From the NCBI RefSeq assembly GCF_021431925.1, contig NZ_CP090371.1, positions 1,860,001-1,924,000 on the forward strand: DNA of 64,000 nt, in the 5' to 3' direction. The DNA comes from Halobaculum sp. CBA1158 (GTDB lineage: Archaea; Halobacteriota; Halobacteria; Halobacteriales; Haloferacaceae). Within the stretch, counting starts at the first letter, position 1, and every line of letters begins with the position of its first letter. Positions 3,812 to 16,744 of this stretch are shown one piece after another. The notes beneath the pieces are model-generated. The model ran no database searches, was not told the DNA's origin, and saw nothing but the letters and a program-made list of their open reading frames with translations. Both the position numbers and the translations under genes were made by a program.

Positions 3812-4918
3812 ATGGGCATCAGCGAAACGTACACACGCGGGAGGGCACTCGCCGTGGACCGACCGTTCGCGCTCGCCGCGCTGACGGTCGTCGCGCTCCT
3901 GTTTCTCGACGTGATCAGACAGGTGGCGACGCCGGGCGGGCTCACGGGCATTCGCCTTGCCACGTATCTGTGGGACGGCCTCGTCGTCGGCCTGTCGATC
4001 GGAGTCGCGGGCGTGGGGCTCTCGATGACGTACAGCATTCTGAACTTCGCGAACTTCGGCCACGGCGACTACGTCACCTCCGGCGCGTTCGCCGGCTGGG
4101 CCGCCACGTGGGTGGTCGCCGGCGTCGGACAGTTCGACCTCTCGACGCTGCTTTTCATCGGGTCGGTGTCGACGCGGGAGCTCGGCGTCTCGATGCTCGA
4201 GACCCCGCTCGCGATCATCGTCGGGCTGGCCGTGGCGGCGGTCGCGACGATCGTCCTCTCGCTCGTCATCGACCGACTCGTCTATCGGCCGATGCGCGAC
4301 GAGGGAGGGATCACGCTGTTGATCGCGTCGATCGGCGTCGCGCTCGCGCTCCGATACAGCATCTACATCGTCTTCGGACAGCGCACGCGCGGCCTCACCG
4401 ACGCGCAGTCGGTTCCGGAGTTCGCGATCGCGATCGGGGCCGGGTCGCTGGAGATCGGCGGCCACGAGATGACGCTCGTCGTCGTCGCGGCCGCGCTGAT
4501 GCTCGGCGTCCACTTCCTGCTCCAGACGACGAAGCTCGGAAAGGCGATGCGGGCGATGGCGGACAACGAGGACCTCGCGCGCGTCACCGGCATCCCGACC
4601 GAGCGGGTCGTCCGCTTCACGTGGATCATCGGCGGCGGGCTGGCCGGCGCGGGCGGCTTCCTCATCGCGCTGGAGCGCGGCGCGATGAACTTCCAGTTCG
4701 GGTGGATCCTCCTGTTGCTCATCTTCGCGGCGGTCATCCTCGGCGGCATCGGGTCGATCTACGGGGCGATGTTCGGCGGGATCACCATGGGGCTCGCACA
4801 GAGTCTCTCGCTGGTGTGGCTTCCGAGCGAGTTCTCCACGGTCGCGGCGTTCGCGGTGATGATCGTCGTGTTGCTCGTGAAGCCCGACGGGCTGTTCTCG
4901 GGGGTGACGACCGCGTGA
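3812..4918 (+). CDS. livH: Branched-chain amino-acid-type ABC transporter permease, LivH-like
   Basis: A 368-residue membrane protein, one of the two permease subunits of a LivHMGF-type (HAAT) importer. Hydrophobic segments run through the whole length after a short polar N terminus. Family-diagnostic stretches are GLSMTYSILNFANFGHGDYVT near residues 68-88 and GAGGFLIALERG followed by FAAVILGGIGSIYGAMFGG near 285-325. The ATG follows an AT-rich element (GCGTTAAGTG, about 40 bp upstream) and a small inverted repeat TTCGG-N5-CCGAA at 3778-3792. Its stop overlaps the GTG of the next permease (GTGA), so all four transporter genes form one translational unit. Substrates of this family include Leu/Ile/Val, urea and short amides; the substrate here cannot be told. 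Confidence 0.9.
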   Translation: MGISETYTRGRALAVDRPFALAALTVVALLFLDVIRQVATPGGLTGIRLATYLWDGLVVGLSIGVAGVGLSMTYSILNFANFGHGDYVTSGAFAGWAATWVVAGVGQFDLSTLLFIGSVSTRELGVSMLETPLAIIVGLAVAAVATIVLSLVIDRLVYRPMRDEGGITLLIASIGVALALRYSIYIVFGQRTRGLTDAQSVPEFAIAIGAGSLEIGGHEMTLVVVAAALMLGVHFLLQTTKLGKAMRAMADNEDLARVTGIPTERVVRFTWIIGGGLAGAGGFLIALERGAMNFQFGWILLLLIFAAVILGGIGSIYGAMFGGITMGLAQSLSLVWLPSEFSTVAAFAVMIVVLLVKPDGLFSGVTTA

Positions 4919-6588
4919 GCGTCGTCGCCGACGGCGACCGCGAGGTCCCCGGCTGGACGCCGTACCGCGAGTGGTTCCGCGACCGGTGGGCCGAGGGCGG
5001 CGCGGTCGCGTGGGGTACCGCGCTGGGCCACCTGCTCGTGGGGGCCGTGGTGTTCGCGCTCGTGGCCGGCTTCGACCTCGGCACGCTCCCGCTGGGCGGG
5101 AGCCTCATCTGGTTCCTCTATCTGACGATCACGGTCGGGGTGTTGTACGCCGCGACGGCCCCGCCCGCCGAGCCGTACGTGACATGGCTCGAGGACCGCT
5201 GGATGGACTCGGACACGGACAAACTGCTCATCGTCCTGGGCCACGTCGTCGTCGTGTTCTTCGTGTTCGCGGTCGCGCTCGGTCTGCCGTTCAACGGGCT
5301 GATGGGCGCGCTCGCGTCGGTGTTCTTCTTCACCGCCGTCTACGCGATGATGGTGTTGGCGCTCAACCTCCATTGGGGGTACGCCGGGGTGTTCAACATC
5401 GGCGTCGCCGGATTCATGGCCGTCGGCGTGTACGTGATGGCGATCCTGTCCTCGCCGACGGAGGGCGGGGCCGCGTCCGTCCCGGGGTTGGGGCTGCCCC
5501 TCCCGATCGGAATCGCCGGCGGCGTGCTCGCGGCCGCGCTCGTCGGACTGGTCGCAGCGCTGCCGGCGCTGCGACTGCGCGCCGACTACTTCGCGATCGT
5601 CACCGTCGCGCTCTCGGAGATCATCCGCCTGACGCTCAACTCCCGGGCGCTCCAGGAGTTCTCGGTGCCGTGGGTGAGCCTCGAGGGGGGCGTGTCGCTG
5701 ACGAGTCGCGTGACCGGCACCGGCGGCGCGACCGGGATAACGATGCCCGGCAACCCGCTTCGCCTCCTGTTTTACGACGGGTTCGGCGCGGGCGCGGAAC
5801 CCGCGCTGCTCGGGTCGGTGCTGTTCCCGCTGTTCGAGGGGCTCCGGATCGAACTGATCCCGCCGGGGTCGTCGTGGCTCGGGATCGTTCCGCTGCCGGC
5901 GTTCACGCTGGATCTCGCTATCCAGCCGTCGGTCATCAGCAACTGGGCGTACGTGGTCGTGTTGACCGGGTTCGTCGCGCTGTTTTACGTCCTGCTGGCC
6001 CGCACGGGCAACTCCCCGTTCGGGCGCGTCCTCAAGGCGATCCGCGAGGACGAGATCGTCGCGCAGTCGCTCGGCAAGGACACCCGGCGGTTCAAGATCG
6101 TCGCGTTCATGGTCGGCTGCGGGCTGATGGGGCTGGGCGGCATCCTCTGGCAGGGGAGCCAGGGGTTCACCAACCCGGGCGCGTTCCGGCCGATCATCAC
6201 CTTCTACATCTGGGTCGCGCTCATCATCGGCGGGGCCGGGTCCAACACCGGAAGCGTGCTCGGCGGCGCGCTGTTCGCCGGCGCGATCTGGGAGGGGCCC
6301 GTGTACGTCCGCCGAGTCGTCACCAACTACGTCGAGTTCGGAGACACGCCGAGCACCTTCCCGGGCGCGGTCGCGCCGTTCGTCGAGGGCGAGGTGCTCC
6401 CGTTCCTCGCGTTCCTGCTCGACAACGTCTCGGCGCTGCGATTCATCCTGGTGGGCGTCATCCTCGTGTTGCTGATGCAGACGCGCCCCGAGGGGCTGCT
6501 GGGCCACCGCAAGGAGGAGGCCGCTGCGATCTCGCTGGGGCGTCCGTCCGCCGGCGACGACGCCGCGACCGACGGGGGTGAACAATGA
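4915..6588 (+). CDS. livM: Branched-chain amino-acid-type ABC transporter permease, LivM-like
   Basis: The second permease subunit, 557 residues from a GTG at 4915 that overlaps the LivH stop codon. The frame is open far upstream, but the GTGA junction and the LivH coding region rule out an earlier start. It is longer than a typical LivM (roughly 300-420 residues) because of an N-terminal region of about 150 residues with extra hydrophobic segments. The conserved core starts near LNLHWGYAGVFNIGVAGFMAVG and includes LPALRLRADYFAIVTVALSEIIR and, later, GLMGLGGILWQGSQGF. A soluble tail follows. The ATGA overlap with the following ATPase gene indicates coupled translation. Confidence 0.9.
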   Translation: MSVVADGDREVPGWTPYREWFRDRWAEGGAVAWGTALGHLLVGAVVFALVAGFDLGTLPLGGSLIWFLYLTITVGVLYAATAPPAEPYVTWLEDRWMDSDTDKLLIVLGHVVVVFFVFAVALGLPFNGLMGALASVFFFTAVYAMMVLALNLHWGYAGVFNIGVAGFMAVGVYVMAILSSPTEGGAASVPGLGLPLPIGIAGGVLAAALVGLVAALPALRLRADYFAIVTVALSEIIRLTLNSRALQEFSVPWVSLEGGVSLTSRVTGTGGATGITMPGNPLRLLFYDGFGAGAEPALLGSVLFPLFEGLRIELIPPGSSWLGIVPLPAFTLDLAIQPSVISNWAYVVVLTGFVALFYVLLARTGNSPFGRVLKAIREDEIVAQSLGKDTRRFKIVAFMVGCGLMGLGGILWQGSQGFTNPGAFRPIITFYIWVALIIGGAGSNTGSVLGGALFAGAIWEGPVYVRRVVTNYVEFGDTPSTFPGAVAPFVEGEVLPFLAFLLDNVSALRFILVGVILVLLMQTRPEGLLGHRKEEAAAISLGRPSAGDDAATDGGEQ

Positions 6589-7487
6589 GCGCCGACGCCG
6601 ACTCCGATACTGACGCCAACGTCGACGCCGATCCGGCGACGGGAGACGCGACGCCGACGGAGACGACGGACGGCGAGGAGGTCGACGCCGCGGGGGCCGG
6701 GCGCGTCGCCGCCGACGCCGCCCACCCGCTGGTCGTGGAGGACCTCCACAAGACGTTCGGCGGGATCAAAGCCGTCGACGGCGCGAGTTTCTCGGTCGCC
6801 GAGGGGTCGCTGACGGGACTCATCGGCCCGAACGGCGCGGGCAAGTCGACGACGTTCAACTGCATCACGGGCGTCCACACGCCGACCTCGGGGACCGTGA
6901 CGTTCCGCGGGCAGGACATCACCGGAATGTCCCCCCATCGGGTCGCCCAGCAGGGGCTCGTGCGGACGTTCCAGATCGCTCGCGAGCTGCCCGAAATGAC
7001 CGTCCTCGAGAACATGATGCTCGCGCGGCAGGGACAGACCGGCGAGCGTCTGATCCACTCGGTGTTGCCGGGGCTGCGCGACCGCGTCGTTCGCGAGGAG
7101 GAGGAGCTGCTGGAGCGGGCCTGGCAGCAGCTGGAGTTCTTCGAGATCGATCACCTCGCCGACGAGTACGCGGGCACCCTCTCGGGCGGACAGCGCAAGC
7201 TGCTGGAGATGGCGCGCGCGCTGATGACCGACCCCGAGATGGTGCTGCTGGACGAACCGCTCGCCGGCGTCAATCCGACGCTCGAGGAGAAGCTGCTCGA
7301 CCGGATCCACGAACTTCGCGAGCGGGGCAACACGTTCCTGCTCGTGGAACACGACATGGACGTCATCATGAACAACTGCGAACACGTCATCGTCATGCAC
7401 CAGGGGCAGGTGCTCGCGGAGGGTACTCCCGAACAGATCACCGGCAACGAACGCGTCGTCGAGGCGTATCTCGGAGGCGACGTATGA
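6585..7487 (+). CDS. livG: Branched-chain amino-acid-type ABC transporter ATP-binding protein, LivG-like
   Basis: A 300-residue ABC ATPase that, with LivF, powers the LivHM permeases from the cytoplasmic face. Walker A is GPNGAGKST at residues 81-89, the signature LSGGQ is at 199-203, Walker B (MVLLDEP) follows, and the H-loop lies in LLVEHDMDVIM. LivG-specific features are the VRTFQIARELPEMTVLENMMLA segment and the C-terminal ...NERVVEAYLGGDV. An acidic, Thr/Asp-rich extension of roughly 45 residues precedes the domain, a common haloarchaeal addition. Its start overlaps the LivM stop, and its stop overlaps the LivF start (ATGA at 7484). Confidence 0.93.
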   Translation: MSADADSDTDANVDADPATGDATPTETTDGEEVDAAGAGRVAADAAHPLVVEDLHKTFGGIKAVDGASFSVAEGSLTGLIGPNGAGKSTTFNCITGVHTPTSGTVTFRGQDITGMSPHRVAQQGLVRTFQIARELPEMTVLENMMLARQGQTGERLIHSVLPGLRDRVVREEEELLERAWQQLEFFEIDHLADEYAGTLSGGQRKLLEMARALMTDPEMVLLDEPLAGVNPTLEEKLLDRIHELRERGNTFLLVEHDMDVIMNNCEHVIVMHQGQVLAEGTPEQITGNERVVEAYLGGDV

Positions 7488-8779
7488 GCGGTGCGGGACA
7501 CGAACGGAGTGAGGGTTCCGGTGAATCGAGCGGGGAGCAGCCCGAACCGCGAGAAAGCGAGGCCGACCGAAGGAAGGCCTCGAATCGAGCGGGGAGTGAA
7601 ACGACCCGCGAAACAAGCGAGGCCGACCGAAGGAAGGCCTCGAATCGAGCGGGGAGTGAAACGACCCGCGAAACAAGCGAGGCCGACCGAAGGAAGGCCT
7701 CGAATCGAGCGGGGAGTGAAACGACCCGCGAAACAAGCGAGGCCGACCGAAGGAAGGCCTCGAATCGAGCGGGGAGTGAAACGACCCGCGAAACAAGCGA
7801 GGCCGACCGAAGGAAGGCCTCGAATCGAGCGGGGAGTGAAACGACCCGCGAAACAAGCGAGGCCGACCGAAGGAAGGCCTCGAATCGAGCGGGGAGTGAA
7901 ACGACCCGCGAAACAAGCGAGGCCGACCGAAGGAAGGCCTCGAATCGAGCGGGGAGTGAAACGACCCGCGAAACAAGCGAGGCCGACCGAAGGAAGGCCT
8001 CGAATCGAGGTCCGCCCGTCGCCGACGGCGGGACCGCGCCGGCGACGCGCGCGGCCGAGGCGACGCTGCCCGAGGAGAGCCTCCTGCAGGTGCGCGACCT
8101 CGACGCGGGCTACGGCGACCTCCAGATCCTGACGGACGTGGACCTGGACGTGGACGACGGCGAGTACGTCACCATCGTCGGCCCGAACGGCGCGGGGAAG
8201 TCGACCGTGATGAAGTCCGTGTTCGGGCTGACGACCTACATGGGCGGCTCCGTCGAGTTCGCCGGCTCGGCGATCCACGGACGCAACCCCGAGGAGATCA
8301 TCCACGAGGGAATCGGCTACGTCCCGCAGAACGACAACATCTTCGAGAGCCTCTCCGTGCGCGAGAACTTGGAGATGGGCGCGTACATCCTCGACGAGGT
8401 GCCCGAGGAGCAGATCGAGGTGATCTACGACCGCTTCCCGATCCTCCGGGAGCGCTCGGACCAGCGCGCCGGGTCGATGTCGGGCGGCCAACGACAGATG
8501 CTCGCGATGGGGCGGGCGCTCATGCTCGATCCGGATCTCCTCTTGCTCGACGAGCCCAGCGCCGGCCTCGCGCCGGACCTCGTCGCCGAGATGTTCGACC
8601 GTATCGACCGCATCAACGACGACGGGACGGCGGTGCTCATGGTCGAGCAGAACGCCAAGGAGGCGCTGGGCCGCTGCGACCGCGGCTACGTCCTCGTCAA
8701 CGGCGAGAACGCCTACGTCGACTCCGGCGAGGCGCTGTTGAACGACGAACAGGTCCGCAAGGACTTCCTCGGCGGCTGA
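7484..8779 (+). CDS. livF: LivF-like ABC ATPase with an N-terminal array of seven 20-residue repeats
   Basis: The second ATPase of the LivHMGF-type importer, 431 residues, against about 235-250 for a normal LivF. The ABC domain starts near residue 197: Walker A GPNGAGKST at 233-241, signature SGGQRQ from 333, Walker B (LLLLDEPSAG) and the LivF-like C terminus (LLNDEQVRKDFLGG). The excess is N-terminal: about 25 polar residues, then residues 26-165 as seven identical 20-residue units beginning EADRRKASNRAG and ending SETTRETS, then a partial unit to residue 176. The repeat is hydrophilic, rich in Arg, Glu, Ser and Thr, with no predicted fold. The ATGA overlap with LivG fixes the start before the repeats, so they should be translated. 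A start codon after the array giving a normal-length LivF is not obvious. Confidence 0.9.
   Translation: MSGAGHERSEGSGESSGEQPEPRESEADRRKASNRAGSETTRETSEADRRKASNRAGSETTRETSEADRRKASNRAGSETTRETSEADRRKASNRAGSETTRETSEADRRKASNRAGSETTRETSEADRRKASNRAGSETTRETSEADRRKASNRAGSETTRETSEADRRKASNRGPPVADGGTAPATRAAEATLPEESLLQVRDLDAGYGDLQILTDVDLDVDDGEYVTIVGPNGAGKSTVMKSVFGLTTYMGGSVEFAGSAIHGRNPEEIIHEGIGYVPQNDNIFESLSVRENLEMGAYILDEVPEEQIEVIYDRFPILRERSDQRAGSMSGGQRQMLAMGRALMLDPDLLLLDEPSAGLAPDLVAEMFDRIDRINDDGTAVLMVEQNAKEALGRCDRGYVLVNGENAYVDSGEALLNDEQVRKDFLGG
7558..8009 (+). repeat. Seven perfect 60-bp tandem repeats plus partial copies, inside livF
   Basis: Copies 1-7 occupy 7561-7980 and are base-for-base identical; a 29-bp partial eighth copy ends at 8009. 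The preceding 40 bases (7521-7560) look like a diverged ancestral unit, sharing GAATCGAGCGGGGAG and a GAAA..AGCGA ending. Each unit holds two inverted repeats: CGAGGCC-N11-GGCCTCG (7558-7582 in the first unit) and GCGGG-N11-CCCGC (7589-7609). The period is a multiple of three, so gain or loss of units keeps the livF frame. There are no spacers, so it is not CRISPR. Confidence 0.98.
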
Positions 8780-13037: not shown

Positions 13038-13125
13038 GGTATAGTAGTTACGTGACGCTCTCGCACAGCCGACCGAGATCGGGGCGTTCCGCCGGGTCGA
13101 GTCGGTGGGACTCGCCCATAGATGA

Positions 13126-13135
13126 GTTTTTATGT
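13126..13135 (+). promoter_or_regulatory. TATA-like box of the zinc-ribbon HTH regulator
   Basis: The T-rich run GTTTTTATGT lies about 27 bp before the in-frame GTG at 13158. It overlaps the alternative upstream ATG start at 13122, which would place the promoter inside the coding sequence; that is why I prefer the GTG start and a leaderless message. Confidence 0.5.
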
Positions 13136-13157
13136 CGAAGGGGGTGAATTTTCGGGT

Positions 13158-14087
13158 GTGAGTCATCATCCCGGCTTCGGACCGGAGGACGCCGAGGCGG
13201 CGTTCTCGTTCCTCGGCGACGGACTCAGACTGTCTATCCTCCGTTCGCTCGCCGACCACGCACGCGACGCCGGGCCGGCGGCCGAGGCGATGGCGTACAG
13301 CGACCTCCGACGCGCCGTCGACGAGGAGGACAGCGGGAAGTTCAGCTACCACCTCGGCAAGCTCACCGGCCGGTTCGTCGAGCAGGTCCCCGGCGGCTAC
13401 CGCCTCCGCGAACCCGGGCGCGAGGCGATCCGCTTGTTGGAGCGCGGTGCGGTCTCCGGGGACGCGTCGCTGTCGCCGACGACGCTCGACCGGGAGTGTC
13501 CGCTGTGCGGTGCGTCGGTCCGCGTCGTCTACGGCGACCACCACCTGTACACGACGTGCACCGACTGCGCCGGGCTGTTCGGAGAGGGCTGTCCGGAGGG
13601 GACGCTGACCGGGATCGCGGTGCCGCCGGCGACTGTCGGGGGTCGAGAGCCCGACGAGCTGTTCGTGCGCGCACACCGGCTGTTCGAGCGTCGCCTCTGG
13701 TCGATGTTCGACGGGCTCTGCGTCGAATGCGGCGGGGACGTACACCGCCGGCTGGACCGCTGTGACTCCCACGAGCACCCGAACGACGGCGTCTGTCCCG
13801 CCTGCAACGCCGGGTACCCGGCGCTCGCGTCGCTGGTGTGTGACACCTGCGGTCGCGGGCGCGTGTCACACCCGCTGTTCGGCCGGACGGACGCCCCCCG
13901 CCTCCACGACCTGCTCGCCGCGGCGGGCACGGACGACGCCTGGGAGCGGTTCGCCGTCGCGCTGTCGTGGGAGCCCATCGACCGCGAGGACGGCGCGGTG
14001 GCGTTTCGGCCGCCCGACGGCGTCCGCGTCGGCGACGACCGAGCCGCGACGCCGATCGTCGATCCGGATCTGACGCTGCGCTGGTAG
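13158..14087 (+). CDS. ArsR-like winged-helix protein with C-terminal zinc ribbons
   Basis: A 309-residue protein from the GTG at 13158 (an ATG at 13122 would add 12 residues). Residues ~5-100 form an ArsR-type winged helix (AAFSFLGDGLRLSILRSLAD; YSDLRRAVDEEDSGKFSYHLGKLTGRFVEQVPGGYRL). The rest carries several CxxC pairs: CPLC...CTDC, CVECGG, CPAC and CDTCGRG, likely two or more structural zinc ribbons. This architecture is common in haloarchaeal regulators of unknown ligand. It is divergent from sdhC and shares its promoter region, including the palindrome at 13017-13037, so control of the sdh operon is a testable inference, not something the sequence proves. Confidence 0.82.
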   Translation: MSHHPGFGPEDAEAAFSFLGDGLRLSILRSLADHARDAGPAAEAMAYSDLRRAVDEEDSGKFSYHLGKLTGRFVEQVPGGYRLREPGREAIRLLERGAVSGDASLSPTTLDRECPLCGASVRVVYGDHHLYTTCTDCAGLFGEGCPEGTLTGIAVPPATVGGREPDELFVRAHRLFERRLWSMFDGLCVECGGDVHRRLDRCDSHEHPNDGVCPACNAGYPALASLVCDTCGRGRVSHPLFGRTDAPRLHDLLAAAGTDDAWERFAVALSWEPIDREDGAVAFRPPDGVRVGDDRAATPIVDPDLTLRW

Positions 14088-14129: not shown

Positions 14130-15173
14130 TCACGTCCCCCGACGCGACGGTCGCGTCGGGGGGCTCGGCGGGCTCTGGGTCATCTCGACCACGCGCCGCG
14201 TCCGCTCGTCCAACTCGACGAGGTGACACAGCGGGTTCCCGGGGTAGACGACCGGGTTCTCGAGCACGCCGACGAGCAGGCCGGTGAACGGTGCCTCCAC
14301 GGAGCTGTTGTCGTTTTTGAACGGGTTCGTGATCGTGCAGACGGCGTCCCCCTCGTGGACCAGCGACCCGCGTTCGAAGTGCATGTCGACGATCCCGCCG
14401 GCGTCGGCGCGCAGCCAGGTCTTCTCGCGCTCGTCGGTGATGACCGTGCGCCACCCCGGCCACCGGACCCGCTCGGCGTCGAGGAGTCCGTACTCCGCGA
14501 ACACCGAGCGGACGCCCGCCAAGGCCTCGTCGATGAGCGGGCGCTGGAAGCGGTGCGCCTCGCCCATCTCGACTGTGATCGCGGCGACGCCGTCGGCGCT
14601 CGCCTCGGTACGAAGCATGCCCGAGGAGCCCTCGCTGTCGATGATGACGTTCGTGCCGTAGGCGCGTGCGAGGCGACCGACGGCCGGATCGCCCATGTCG
14701 GCGCGGGCGTGGATCATGTTGGTTCGCCCCCGCGTCGACGTGTGGAAGTCGATTCCGAGGTCGCACGGCTCGATGAAGTTCGCGTAGATGCGCGCGGCCA
14801 TCCGCTTGGCGCTGGTGGAGTCGGCCGAGCCGGGGAACGAGCGGTTCAGGTCGCGGTCGTACACCGGGAGGTAGCGCTGCTGGGCGAGGAAGCCCGGGAC
14901 GTTCAACACGGGCAGGCAGATCACTGTGCCGCGAAGCCCCGAGAGGTCCCACTCGTGGGCGACCTCGCGGACCACCTCGATGCCGTTGAGTTCGTCGCCG
15001 TGGGCGGCCGCAGAGAGGAACGCCGTCGGCCCCGGCTCCTCGCCGTTGACGATCGTCACCGGGATCCGGACCGGGTCGCCGAGGTAGGTCTCCGACACCA
15101 CGAACCGGAGGTTCTGTCGTTCGCCGGGGGCGACCCGTCCCCCGTCGTAGGTGAAGGAGTCGTCGTCGGTCAT
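14130..15173 (-). CDS. Succinylglutamate desuccinylase/aspartoacylase-family (M14) zinc amidohydrolase
   Basis: A 347-residue zinc enzyme of the AstE/ASPA branch of the M14 carboxypeptidase fold, which hydrolyses N-acyl amino acids or amino-acid amides. Zinc ligands are visible: His58 and Glu61 in AAHGDELNG, and His144 in GIDFHTST. DRDLNRSFPG supplies the substrate-binding Asn-Arg. A C-terminal beta-barrel (GGIVDMHFERGSLVHEGDAVCTITNPF; PFTGLLVGVLENPVVYPGNPLCHLV) completes the family architecture. It is divergent, 212 bp away, from a RimK-type ligase fused to a protease domain; such neighbours suggest removal or recycling of a ligated amino acid or peptide. The substrate itself is unknown. Confidence 0.88.
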   Translation of the reverse strand: MTDDDSFTYDGGRVAPGERQNLRFVVSETYLGDPVRIPVTIVNGEEPGPTAFLSAAAHGDELNGIEVVREVAHEWDLSGLRGTVICLPVLNVPGFLAQQRYLPVYDRDLNRSFPGSADSTSAKRMAARIYANFIEPCDLGIDFHTSTRGRTNMIHARADMGDPAVGRLARAYGTNVIIDSEGSSGMLRTEASADGVAAITVEMGEAHRFQRPLIDEALAGVRSVFAEYGLLDAERVRWPGWRTVITDEREKTWLRADAGGIVDMHFERGSLVHEGDAVCTITNPFKNDNSSVEAPFTGLLVGVLENPVVYPGNPLCHLVELDERTRRVVEMTQSPPSPPTRPSRRGT

Positions 15174-15270
15174 GTCGAGCGGTGGGCGGCCCGCGGTGAT
15201 AAACTACCCCTCGGCGGCGACCGTGACGATCGCGCCCGGATCCGCGTCTGAGTCGCCGTCGGCCCCCCAC

Positions 15271-15312
15271 GCGTCGTCGGCCACCTCCCGCGCGTCGTCG
15301 GCCACCTCCCGC
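15271..15312. repeat. Two direct copies of a 21-bp unit
   Basis: The unit beginning GCGTCGTCGGCCACC occurs twice, head to tail and identical, in the divergent gap between the aspartoacylase-like gene and the RimK-like gene. It is probably slippage; no regulatory meaning is evident. Confidence 0.8.
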
Positions 15313-15385
15313 GCGTGCGAGACCCGCTCTCTCACGCCCTCGGACGGACCGAGACACTTTCACCGGACCACCGAGTCATACCACC

Positions 15386-16744
15386 ATGACCGAATCACCC
15401 GTCCGCGTCGGCGTCCTCTCGCTACACACGAGCAAGGAGTCGAAGGCCATCTGCAACGCGATCGAGGCACTCGGCCACGAGCCGGAGTGGATCCGCCGCG
15501 AGAACGCCGCCGTCTCCGTCGACGGGGGAGCGGTCACGATCGAACCGGACGTCGACGTGGTCGCCAACCGGATGCTCCTCTCGAACGTCGAACAGCCGGC
15601 CGAGGGGCTCGGGCTGGCGCACACGTTCGGTCGCGCGCGTCCGATCCTCAACGACCCCTCCGCCGTGCTGACGGCGATGCACAAGTTCGCCTCCGCGGTC
15701 GCGCTGGCGGAGGCGGGGGTACGCGTCCCCGACGCCCTGCTGGCGCTGTCGAACGACCGGCTGAACCGCGACCGCGACCGCTTCGGCGAGGAGGGCGTGT
15801 ACAAGACGGCCATCGGCACCCACGGCGGCGGCACCTGGAAGGTCGACCTCACCGAGCCGGTGAACCCGATGGTCGGCAACCGTCAGGCGTTCCTCCAGCA
15901 GCTGATCGACCGCGACGACGCGCGCCACCACGACACCCGCGTCTACGTCGTCGGCGACGAGATCGTCGGCGCGATGAACCGCTACGCGCCCGAGGGCGAC
16001 TGGCGCACCAACGTCGCGCTCGGCGGCGACGTGGAGGACGCGGCCGACTCGCTCGACGACGAGGCCCGCGAGATGGCCCTCGCCGCCACCGAGACGATCG
16101 GGCTCGATTACGCCGGCGTCGACCTCGTCGAGGGGTACGACGGCTGGTACGTGTTGGAGGTCAACCCCACCGCGGGGTTCAAGGGCCTGTTCGCGGCGAC
16201 CGGTCGGTCGCCCGCGCCGCACATCGCCCGGCTCGCGATCGAGCGCGCCGGCGGGAGCGTGGACGACGACCGCGTCGCCAAACTCGCGTCGACGCTCGAC
16301 GACTCGACGCCGGCGTGCATGCCCCCCGAGCGGCGCATCAACGACGGCGAGACGCCGATCATCGGGTACATCGAGGACGTGCACGTCGCCGGAACGCAGG
16401 GGTCGACGCAGGCGTACGCCAAGTCCGACACCGGGGCGACGCGCTCGTCGATCGACACGAAGCTGGCCGCGCGGATCGGTGCCGGGCCGATCAAGAGCAT
16501 GACCCGGGTCAAGTCCGGGTCGATGAAGTCCGGGAAGGCCCGCCCCGTCGTCGACCTCGTCGTCGGCATCGGGGGCGAGCAGCACACCGTCACCGCCAGC
16601 GTCGAGGACCGCTCGCACATGGAGTATCCCCTGCTGCTCGGCCGCGACATCCTCCAGCACTACCGCGTCGACGTGGGCCGACGCGCCGACGAGGGCGCGG
16701 CCGGCGAGCGCGACGAGGAGGAGGAAGAGGGAACGGAAGAGTGA
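15386..16744 (+). CDS. RimK-type ATP-grasp ligase fused to a C-terminal retropepsin-like (RimB-like) domain
   Basis: A 452-residue fusion. Residues ~1-300 are a RimK-like ATP-grasp ligase: pre-ATP-grasp domain (VGVLSLHTSKESKAICNAIE), glycine-rich loop GTHGGGTWKV, and metal/nucleotide residues in GLDYAGVDLVEG and YVLEVNPTAGF. Such enzymes form amide bonds using ATP, for example adding glutamate to a protein tail. Residues ~325-435 resemble the RimB/putative ATP-dependent zinc protease family, a retropepsin-like fold: active-site DTGAT at 348-352, GKARPVVDLVVGIGG, and the second signature YPLLLGRDIL. The tail is acidic. Joining bond-forming and bond-cleaving domains in one chain, beside a divergent aspartoacylase-like enzyme, suggests a modification cycle. 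Target and donor amino acid are unknown. Confidence 0.86.
   Translation: MTESPVRVGVLSLHTSKESKAICNAIEALGHEPEWIRRENAAVSVDGGAVTIEPDVDVVANRMLLSNVEQPAEGLGLAHTFGRARPILNDPSAVLTAMHKFASAVALAEAGVRVPDALLALSNDRLNRDRDRFGEEGVYKTAIGTHGGGTWKVDLTEPVNPMVGNRQAFLQQLIDRDDARHHDTRVYVVGDEIVGAMNRYAPEGDWRTNVALGGDVEDAADSLDDEAREMALAATETIGLDYAGVDLVEGYDGWYVLEVNPTAGFKGLFAATGRSPAPHIARLAIERAGGSVDDDRVAKLASTLDDSTPACMPPERRINDGETPIIGYIEDVHVAGTQGSTQAYAKSDTGATRSSIDTKLAARIGAGPIKSMTRVKSGSMKSGKARPVVDLVVGIGGEQHTVTASVEDRSHMEYPLLLGRDILQHYRVDVGRRADEGAAGERDEEEEEGTEE

Follow-up and report, generated by a model that had tools for sequence, protein, structure and literature searches.

The RimB-RimK(-RimA) system of Pseudomonas, in which RimK adds C-terminal glutamate to its target, RpsF (bS6), and RimB removes it, is encoded by separate genes (PMC7343187, PMC10092738). 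In bacteria RimB, a retropepsin, cleaves poly-glutamate and also stimulates RimK (PMC11957791). A fusion of the two enzymes is, as an idea, already known: the protease half of the RimBK hybrid DP2392 from Desulfotalea psychrophila is active on poly-glutamate (PMC11957791). RimK homologues are found widely among organisms that lack a modifiable S6, and the question of what their targets might be has been raised (PMC11957791). A retropepsin of the same fold also occurs with an ATP-grasp protein in the Pseudomonas RloA/RloB/RloC locus (PMC12239564).

The DNA considered here, referred to as the window, is a stretch of 64,000 nucleotides from Halobaculum sp. CBA1158 (NZ_CP090371.1, forward strand, positions 1,860,001 to 1,924,000). 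It encodes a RimK-type ligase fused to a RimB-type retropepsin, divergent from a gene for an AstE/ASPA-type zinc enzyme. The write/erase logic would be that of the Pseudomonas system, but the haloarchaeal host lacks S6. As in the RimBK hybrid, ligase and retropepsin are in one chain, but RimB is N-terminal in the hybrid and C-terminal here, and thus the fusion falls outside the published definition of the hybrid. The hybrid survey covered bacteria only, with S6 as the bacterial target (PMC11957791), whereas the haloarchaeal fusion is found in another domain of life. The RloA/RloB/RloC locus differs in that it is unfused and has a secreted protease and an inactive transglutaminase membrane protein. 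Judged by its domains, the fusion would work like a RimB-RimK system, yet it is neither an S6-ligase equivalog nor a RimBK hybrid as defined in the literature. What is new is the reversed domain order, the separate RimK lineage, the missing S6, and the variable tails that end in Glu-Glu. No description of the archaeal fusion was found in the open-access literature, where absence is not proof of absence.

We consider it somewhat better than an even bet (roughly 55%) that the two genes are a haloarchaeal form of a RimK/RimB/AstE module for reversible glutamylation, with the fusion's own Glu-Glu tail as the most economical acceptor candidate. The RimK domain, using ATP, would add glutamate at a carboxyl terminus; the fused retropepsin, as a dimer, would trim poly-glutamate back; and the AstE-type enzyme would hydrolyze what the protease leaves over, either by trimming the final residues or by acting on the product that was released. 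The sequence-only reading had proposed such a write/erase cycle. It stands as the best hypothesis, supported by co-inheritance of the genes, the retropepsin fold, and RimK-RimB-AstE neighborhoods elsewhere. The glutamate substrate, the direction and order of the steps, the role of the AstE-type enzyme, and the tail as acceptor are what we infer.

RESULTS AND DISCUSSION

Locus and promoters

Inspection of sequence and translation placed both open reading frames where the sequence-only reading had them (Table 1). Chance open reading frames are excluded because the pair is conserved across genera at 50 to 89% identity. The two genes have a 212-bp intergenic region in common, which had been described as a shared promoter region, but a single shared promoter fits less well. 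An AT-rich peak lies at -33 to -25 on the AstE side (45 homologous upstream regions) and at -28 to -24 on the rimK-rimB side (60 homologous upstream regions). Both start codons are thus preceded by a TATA-like peak of their own (about -24 to -30), an arrangement better explained by two leaderless promoters placed back to back than by a common one.

Two other features were noted around the pair. A 21-bp unit (GCGTCGTCGGCCACCTCCCGC), spotted by eye, is present as two direct copies between the genes (positions 15271 to 15312). A regulator gene with DUF7347 (HTH-like) and DUF7351 domains is adjacent (13122 to 14087, plus strand), beside a succinate dehydrogenase cluster, and it showed no sign of belonging to the ligase-protease/AstE module.

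TABLE 1 Features of the rimK-rimB/AstE locus, numbered by position in the window
Feature	Position	Strand	Remarks
AstE/ASPA-type zinc-dependent amidohydrolase or carboxypeptidase-like enzyme	14130-15173	-	347 aa; PF24827
RimK-RimB fusion gene	15386-16744	+	452 aa; full-length in 131/145 halobacterial genomes
RimK-type ATP-grasp ligase domain, residues 1-295	15386-16270	+	PF08443/TIGR00768
RimB/RloA-type retropepsin domain, residues 312-438	16319-16699	+	PF05618 and fold model
DTGA catalytic aspartate motif, residues 348-351	16427-16438	+	D348 in 116/121 homologues
Second retropepsin motif LLLGRD, GRD at residues 419-421	16640-16648	+	GRD in 120/121, one gap
Variable acidic tail ending in Glu-Glu (...ERDEEEEEGTEE), candidate S6-like acceptor	16682-16741	+	Terminal Glu statistics
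Predicted zinc ligands His58 (15000-15002), Glu61 (14991-14993), His144 (14742-14744)	14742-15002	-	98/98 homologues
TATA-like element of AstE gene, TAGTTTAT, about 29 bp 5' of ATG	15199-15206	-	AT-rich peak
TATA-like element of rimK-rimB gene, ACTTTC, about 27 bp 5' of ATG	15356-15361	+	AT-rich peak

The C-terminal domain has a retropepsin fold

PF05618 (Zn_protease/RimB) matched residues 370 to 433 with 42.9 bits against a cutoff of 27 and was detected in 27 of 29 members; weaker aspartyl-protease matches (PF13975 and PF13650) span the DTGA to GRD motifs. The score, the DTG and hydrophobic-GRD motifs, and the fold all assign the domain to the RimB/PF05618 retropepsins. In the full-length AlphaFold2 model the ligase half was good and residues 319 to 452 were unfolded (pLDDT of about 25). 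When residues 312 to 438 were modeled by themselves from 29 natural sequences, the domain folded with a pLDDT of 78. The best solved match of this domain model was Pseudomonas RloA2 (9g59; Foldseek E value of 4.5e-8), which superposed with a Z score of 12.4 and an rmsd of 2.1 over 95 residues at 36% identity. RloA and DUF785 followed, and then Ddi1 and retroviral proteases. BLAST found no match between the haloarchaeal domain and the RimB of the unfused rimB-rimK-astE triads described below; a profile alignment of the two gave an E value of 3.5e-5 and a probability of 72%. These results support the earlier proposals that the plus-strand gene joins a ligase to a retropepsin with an intact DTGA motif and that its C-terminal region has a retropepsin fold.

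The Glu-Glu terminus and the absence of S6

The tail beyond the retropepsin domain is 13 to 36 residues long and poorly conserved. It ends in Glu in 116 of 120 distinct fusion homologues and in Glu-Glu in 99. The loci had been collected for their similarity to the window, and the resulting over-representation of Halorubrum was reduced by clustering. Of 20 representatives of clusters at 70% identity, Glu is terminal in 17 and Glu-Glu in 14. The fraction of Glu is 0.85 at -1, 0.75 at -2, and 0.10 at -3, and Asp is never terminal. By comparison, 9.8% of 543 other open reading frames of the same loci end in Glu and 1.3% in Glu-Glu, and among the acidic-tailed ones the counts are 8 and 2 of 21. No such general Glu-Glu end was seen in the AstE protein or in the RimK and RimB proteins of unfused operons. 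The RimBK-like protein of Thioclava, the only one of its kind compared, ends in RVVGLA.

S6 (PF01250) was not found in the host genome by a search that was positive in 10 bacterial controls and in 0 archaeal controls. The acceptor must therefore differ from the bacterial one. The fusion in the window ends in EGTEE, and the unmodified C termini of E. coli and Pseudomonas S6 are GDSEE and DNADE, respectively (PMC11957791). Bacterial RimK extends ends of this kind. The simplest reading of the tail is that the fusion may carry its own acceptor, a Glu-Glu end that resembles that of E. coli S6. An extension of this idea is that the fusion would be its own substrate, with writer, eraser, and acceptor in one chain that serves as an auto-glutamylation switch or as a poly-glutamate primer, the AstE-type enzyme finishing the product. 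We hold this extension only tentatively and regard it as on the unlikely side. Pseudomonas RimB requires five or six contiguous Glu (PMC11957791), and most tails here, before any extension, carry fewer, which would count against the glutamylation reading.

The alternative that comes closest is that the Glu-Glu end serves for autoinhibition, as a mimic of the product, or for solubility. It is compatible with the rest of the glutamylation reading, and although we favor the acceptor, it has a substantial, if lesser, chance of being correct. Product-like tails could occupy the ligase or protease site, and a product-mimicking inhibitor would give the same terminal pattern. Haloarchaeal tails are often acidic, and this general acidity, reflected in the acidic-tailed open reading frames that end in Glu, weighs against the acceptor reading. 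On the other hand, the lack of Asp at the last position and the fall in Glu at -3 count against this alternative.

Six fusion paralogues bear on the kind of inhibition that would be possible. Most belong to Natronococcus or other Natrialbaceae, and one is carried by a plasmid of Natronosalvus. The six have lost the catalytic Asp or the motif Gly, with DTG replaced by EPV, EPI, or DPT, and all six have all eight of the ligase residues that were checked. The change is from Asp to Glu in five of them and is expected to be inactivating because the D31E variant of Pseudomonas RimB is inactive (PMC11957791). The six are thus expected, from their motifs, to be natural pseudoproteases. AstE was not found in the locus DNA beside any of them. 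The Glu-Glu end persists in five of the six, and because these protease-decayed paralogues mostly keep the tail, the terminus tracks the ligase more than the protease. This disfavors a role as protease inhibitor and leaves a role as ligase inhibitor unaffected.

Ligase and AstE-type enzyme: which substrate?

The N-terminal half of the fusion belongs to the RimK family. PF08443 (RimK ATP-grasp) matched residues 98 to 272 (E value of 1.2e-25), and the score with TIGR00768 (rimK_fam), 145.5 bits, is barely above the cutoff of 143.4. The AlphaFold2 pLDDT of the domain is mostly above 80. R62, K140, R185, R199, and R207 are invariant in 121 sequences, and D246, E258, and N260 are present in all 120 that are ungapped there. 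Of the seven residues of Pseudomonas RimK that contact poly-glutamate (S7, R8, S14, R64, S68, R189, and N262) (PMC10092738), S7, R64, R189, and N262 align with haloarchaeal S12, R62, R185, and N260. R211, near the poly-glutamate site, aligns with R207, the equivalent of which is missing from MptN proteins and from the LysX of locus L189. The positions aligned with R8, S14, and S68 are not conserved, and this loss of three of the seven contacts would count against glutamylation.

Identity of the haloarchaeal RimK domain to the RimK of bacterial and methanogen triads is 25 to 28%. In the RimK tree the haloarchaeal proteins form a deep clade apart from triad RimK; the clade joins LysX through long branches, a join that is not trusted. 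The score with the equivalog model for 30S ribosomal protein S6-L-glutamate ligase (NF007764) is 70.5 bits against a cutoff of 331. Because of this low score and the separate deep lineage, glutamate is a likely but not assured substrate of the ligase.

The divergent gene had been described as a zinc amidohydrolase with intact His58, Glu61, and His144, and this identification held. The protein belongs to the catalytic family PF24827 (AstE_AspA_cat; E value of 4.5e-43; 147.5 bits against a cutoff of 25), and these three residues and Glu202 (VEMG) are invariant among 98 homologues. Among solved structures, 3na6 and the DoeB deacetylases 6twl and 6twm are closest to it. It has the fold family and zinc ligands of the DoeB/AstE/ASPA deacylases but differs from DoeB (96.1 against 402.7 bits) and AstE (18.0 against 305.65 bits) in scoring far under both equivalog cutoffs, which makes a substrate other than theirs likely. 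The AstE tree gave no resolved branching because distant paralogues sit on very long branches. The role of the AstE-type enzyme is the weakest part of the module interpretation.

These assignments leave some room for a ligase that acts on a small molecule, such as a coenzyme or an N-acyl amino acid like N-acetyl-aspartyl-glutamate, with the AstE-type enzyme deacylating or de-amidating the same compound and the retropepsin only regulating the ligase. Archaeal relatives of RimK make coenzymes (MptN and CofF) and lysine precursors (LysX), AstE relatives use N-acyl amino acids, DoeB deacetylases are among the closest solved structures, and RimB modulates RimK (PMC11957791). However, the fusion scores far under the equivalog cutoffs for MptN (NF040720; 111.5 against 350 bits), LysX (TIGR02144; 100.8 against 275.6 bits), and CofF (TIGR04443; 48 against 300 bits), and the host genome encodes a separate LysX. 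A small-molecule ligase would also have no need for a conserved protease site or a peptide-like Glu-Glu end. We therefore regard this possibility as rather unlikely.

Related loci outside Halobacteria

Within the phylum sample, only Halobacteria yielded the fusion; among the matches listed elsewhere, the ligase part alone was covered. PF05618 domains outside Halobacteria are mostly in short open reading frames of about 160 to 220 residues. The earlier statement that RimB and AstE are genomic partners of bacterial RimK agrees with the rimB/rimK/astE trios, in varied gene order, that are annotated on plasmids of Salinivibrio, Phaeobacter, Acaryochloris, and two Vibrio species. A tight unfused rimB-rimK-astE operon was also found in a family of methanogens, probably Methanosarcinaceae because the same search was positive in Methanosarcina acetivorans. 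These operons have the same three enzyme families per locus as the haloarchaeal module but differ from it in having separate genes, a true RimK equivalog, and no Glu-Glu tail. The methanogen RimK (462.7 bits with the equivalog model) shares 74% identity with its Salinivibrio counterpart, and this closeness suggests that the gene moved between bacteria and methanogens. S6 was undetected in the M. acetivorans control, although these methanogens carry an S6-ligase equivalog RimK.

Two distinct RimK lineages have thus retained or assembled the combination of ligase, retropepsin, and AstE; the RimK tree would allow an old divergence or separate assembly alike. The presence of the combination in two lineages argues that the three enzymes act on one chemistry.

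That chemistry might in principle be the making and degradation of free poly-alpha-glutamate, as a polymer or osmolyte without a protein target. The protease would then determine chain length, and AstE would recycle the short products. Bacterial RimK does make free poly-alpha-glutamate, stimulated by RimB (PMC11957791), and the module is in halophilic archaea, with the bacterial records that were read mostly marine or saline. Nevertheless, a free polymer leaves the Glu-Glu end unexplained unless the end is a primer, in which case the idea merges with reversible glutamylation. As a separate explanation it is improbable.

Co-inheritance of the two genes in Halobacteria

The pair had been expected to be conserved among relatives, and it is. 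With the fusion counted as full-length at an E value of <1e-100, 131 of 145 halobacterial genomes have both genes, 13 have neither, 1 has AstE only, and none has the fusion only (Fisher P value of 1.2e-17, phylogeny not taken into account). AstE orthologues, 62 to 89% identical, are accordingly in 132 genomes. The one genome with AstE only has an intact AstE gene beside a remnant of the fusion that retains just RimK residues 6 to 69, which looks like a recent loss of the ligase-protease gene. Both genes are jointly missing within four genera whose other members keep both, and because such joint absences recur inside these genera, the absence pattern is not one event. Where a genome has extra copies, these too are divergent RimKB-AstE pairs, found on two contigs of one genome and one contig of another.

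In 86 genomes the genes are divergent and no more than 500 bp apart; another 35 genomes, of which 32 are from one family (f4), have them divergent within 10 kb. They are far apart in 6 genomes and on other contigs in 2. A third module gene between the pair was considered for the gap of about 3 kb in 31 genomes of family f4. The gap is probably an insertion, as most other families do not have it. In the two such loci that were read (L157, positions 5190 to 8035, and L165, positions 4253 to 7731) the gap is occupied by genes which, judged by eye, encode a GNAT acetyltransferase and a flippase-like membrane protein. In a separate observation, a fusion copy on a Haladaptatus pallidirubidus plasmid adjoins a more distant AstE-like gene and a gene of the glutamate-cysteine ligase family.

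Divergent genes are not co-transcribed, and each of these has its own TATA-like element, but the co-occurrence counts, the linked extra copies, and the operons of the same three families elsewhere make it very improbable that the genes work separately and are neighbors by chance or regional synteny, a reading that the genome distribution and pairing largely refute.

Implications

The module occurs almost throughout an archaeal class that includes genetically tractable species and places ligase and eraser in one gene. The PF05618 search was also positive in Haloferax volcanii, a laboratory strain. With a candidate acceptor residue named and natural protease-dead paralogues available as controls, the target of a RimK in an organism without S6 becomes directly testable.
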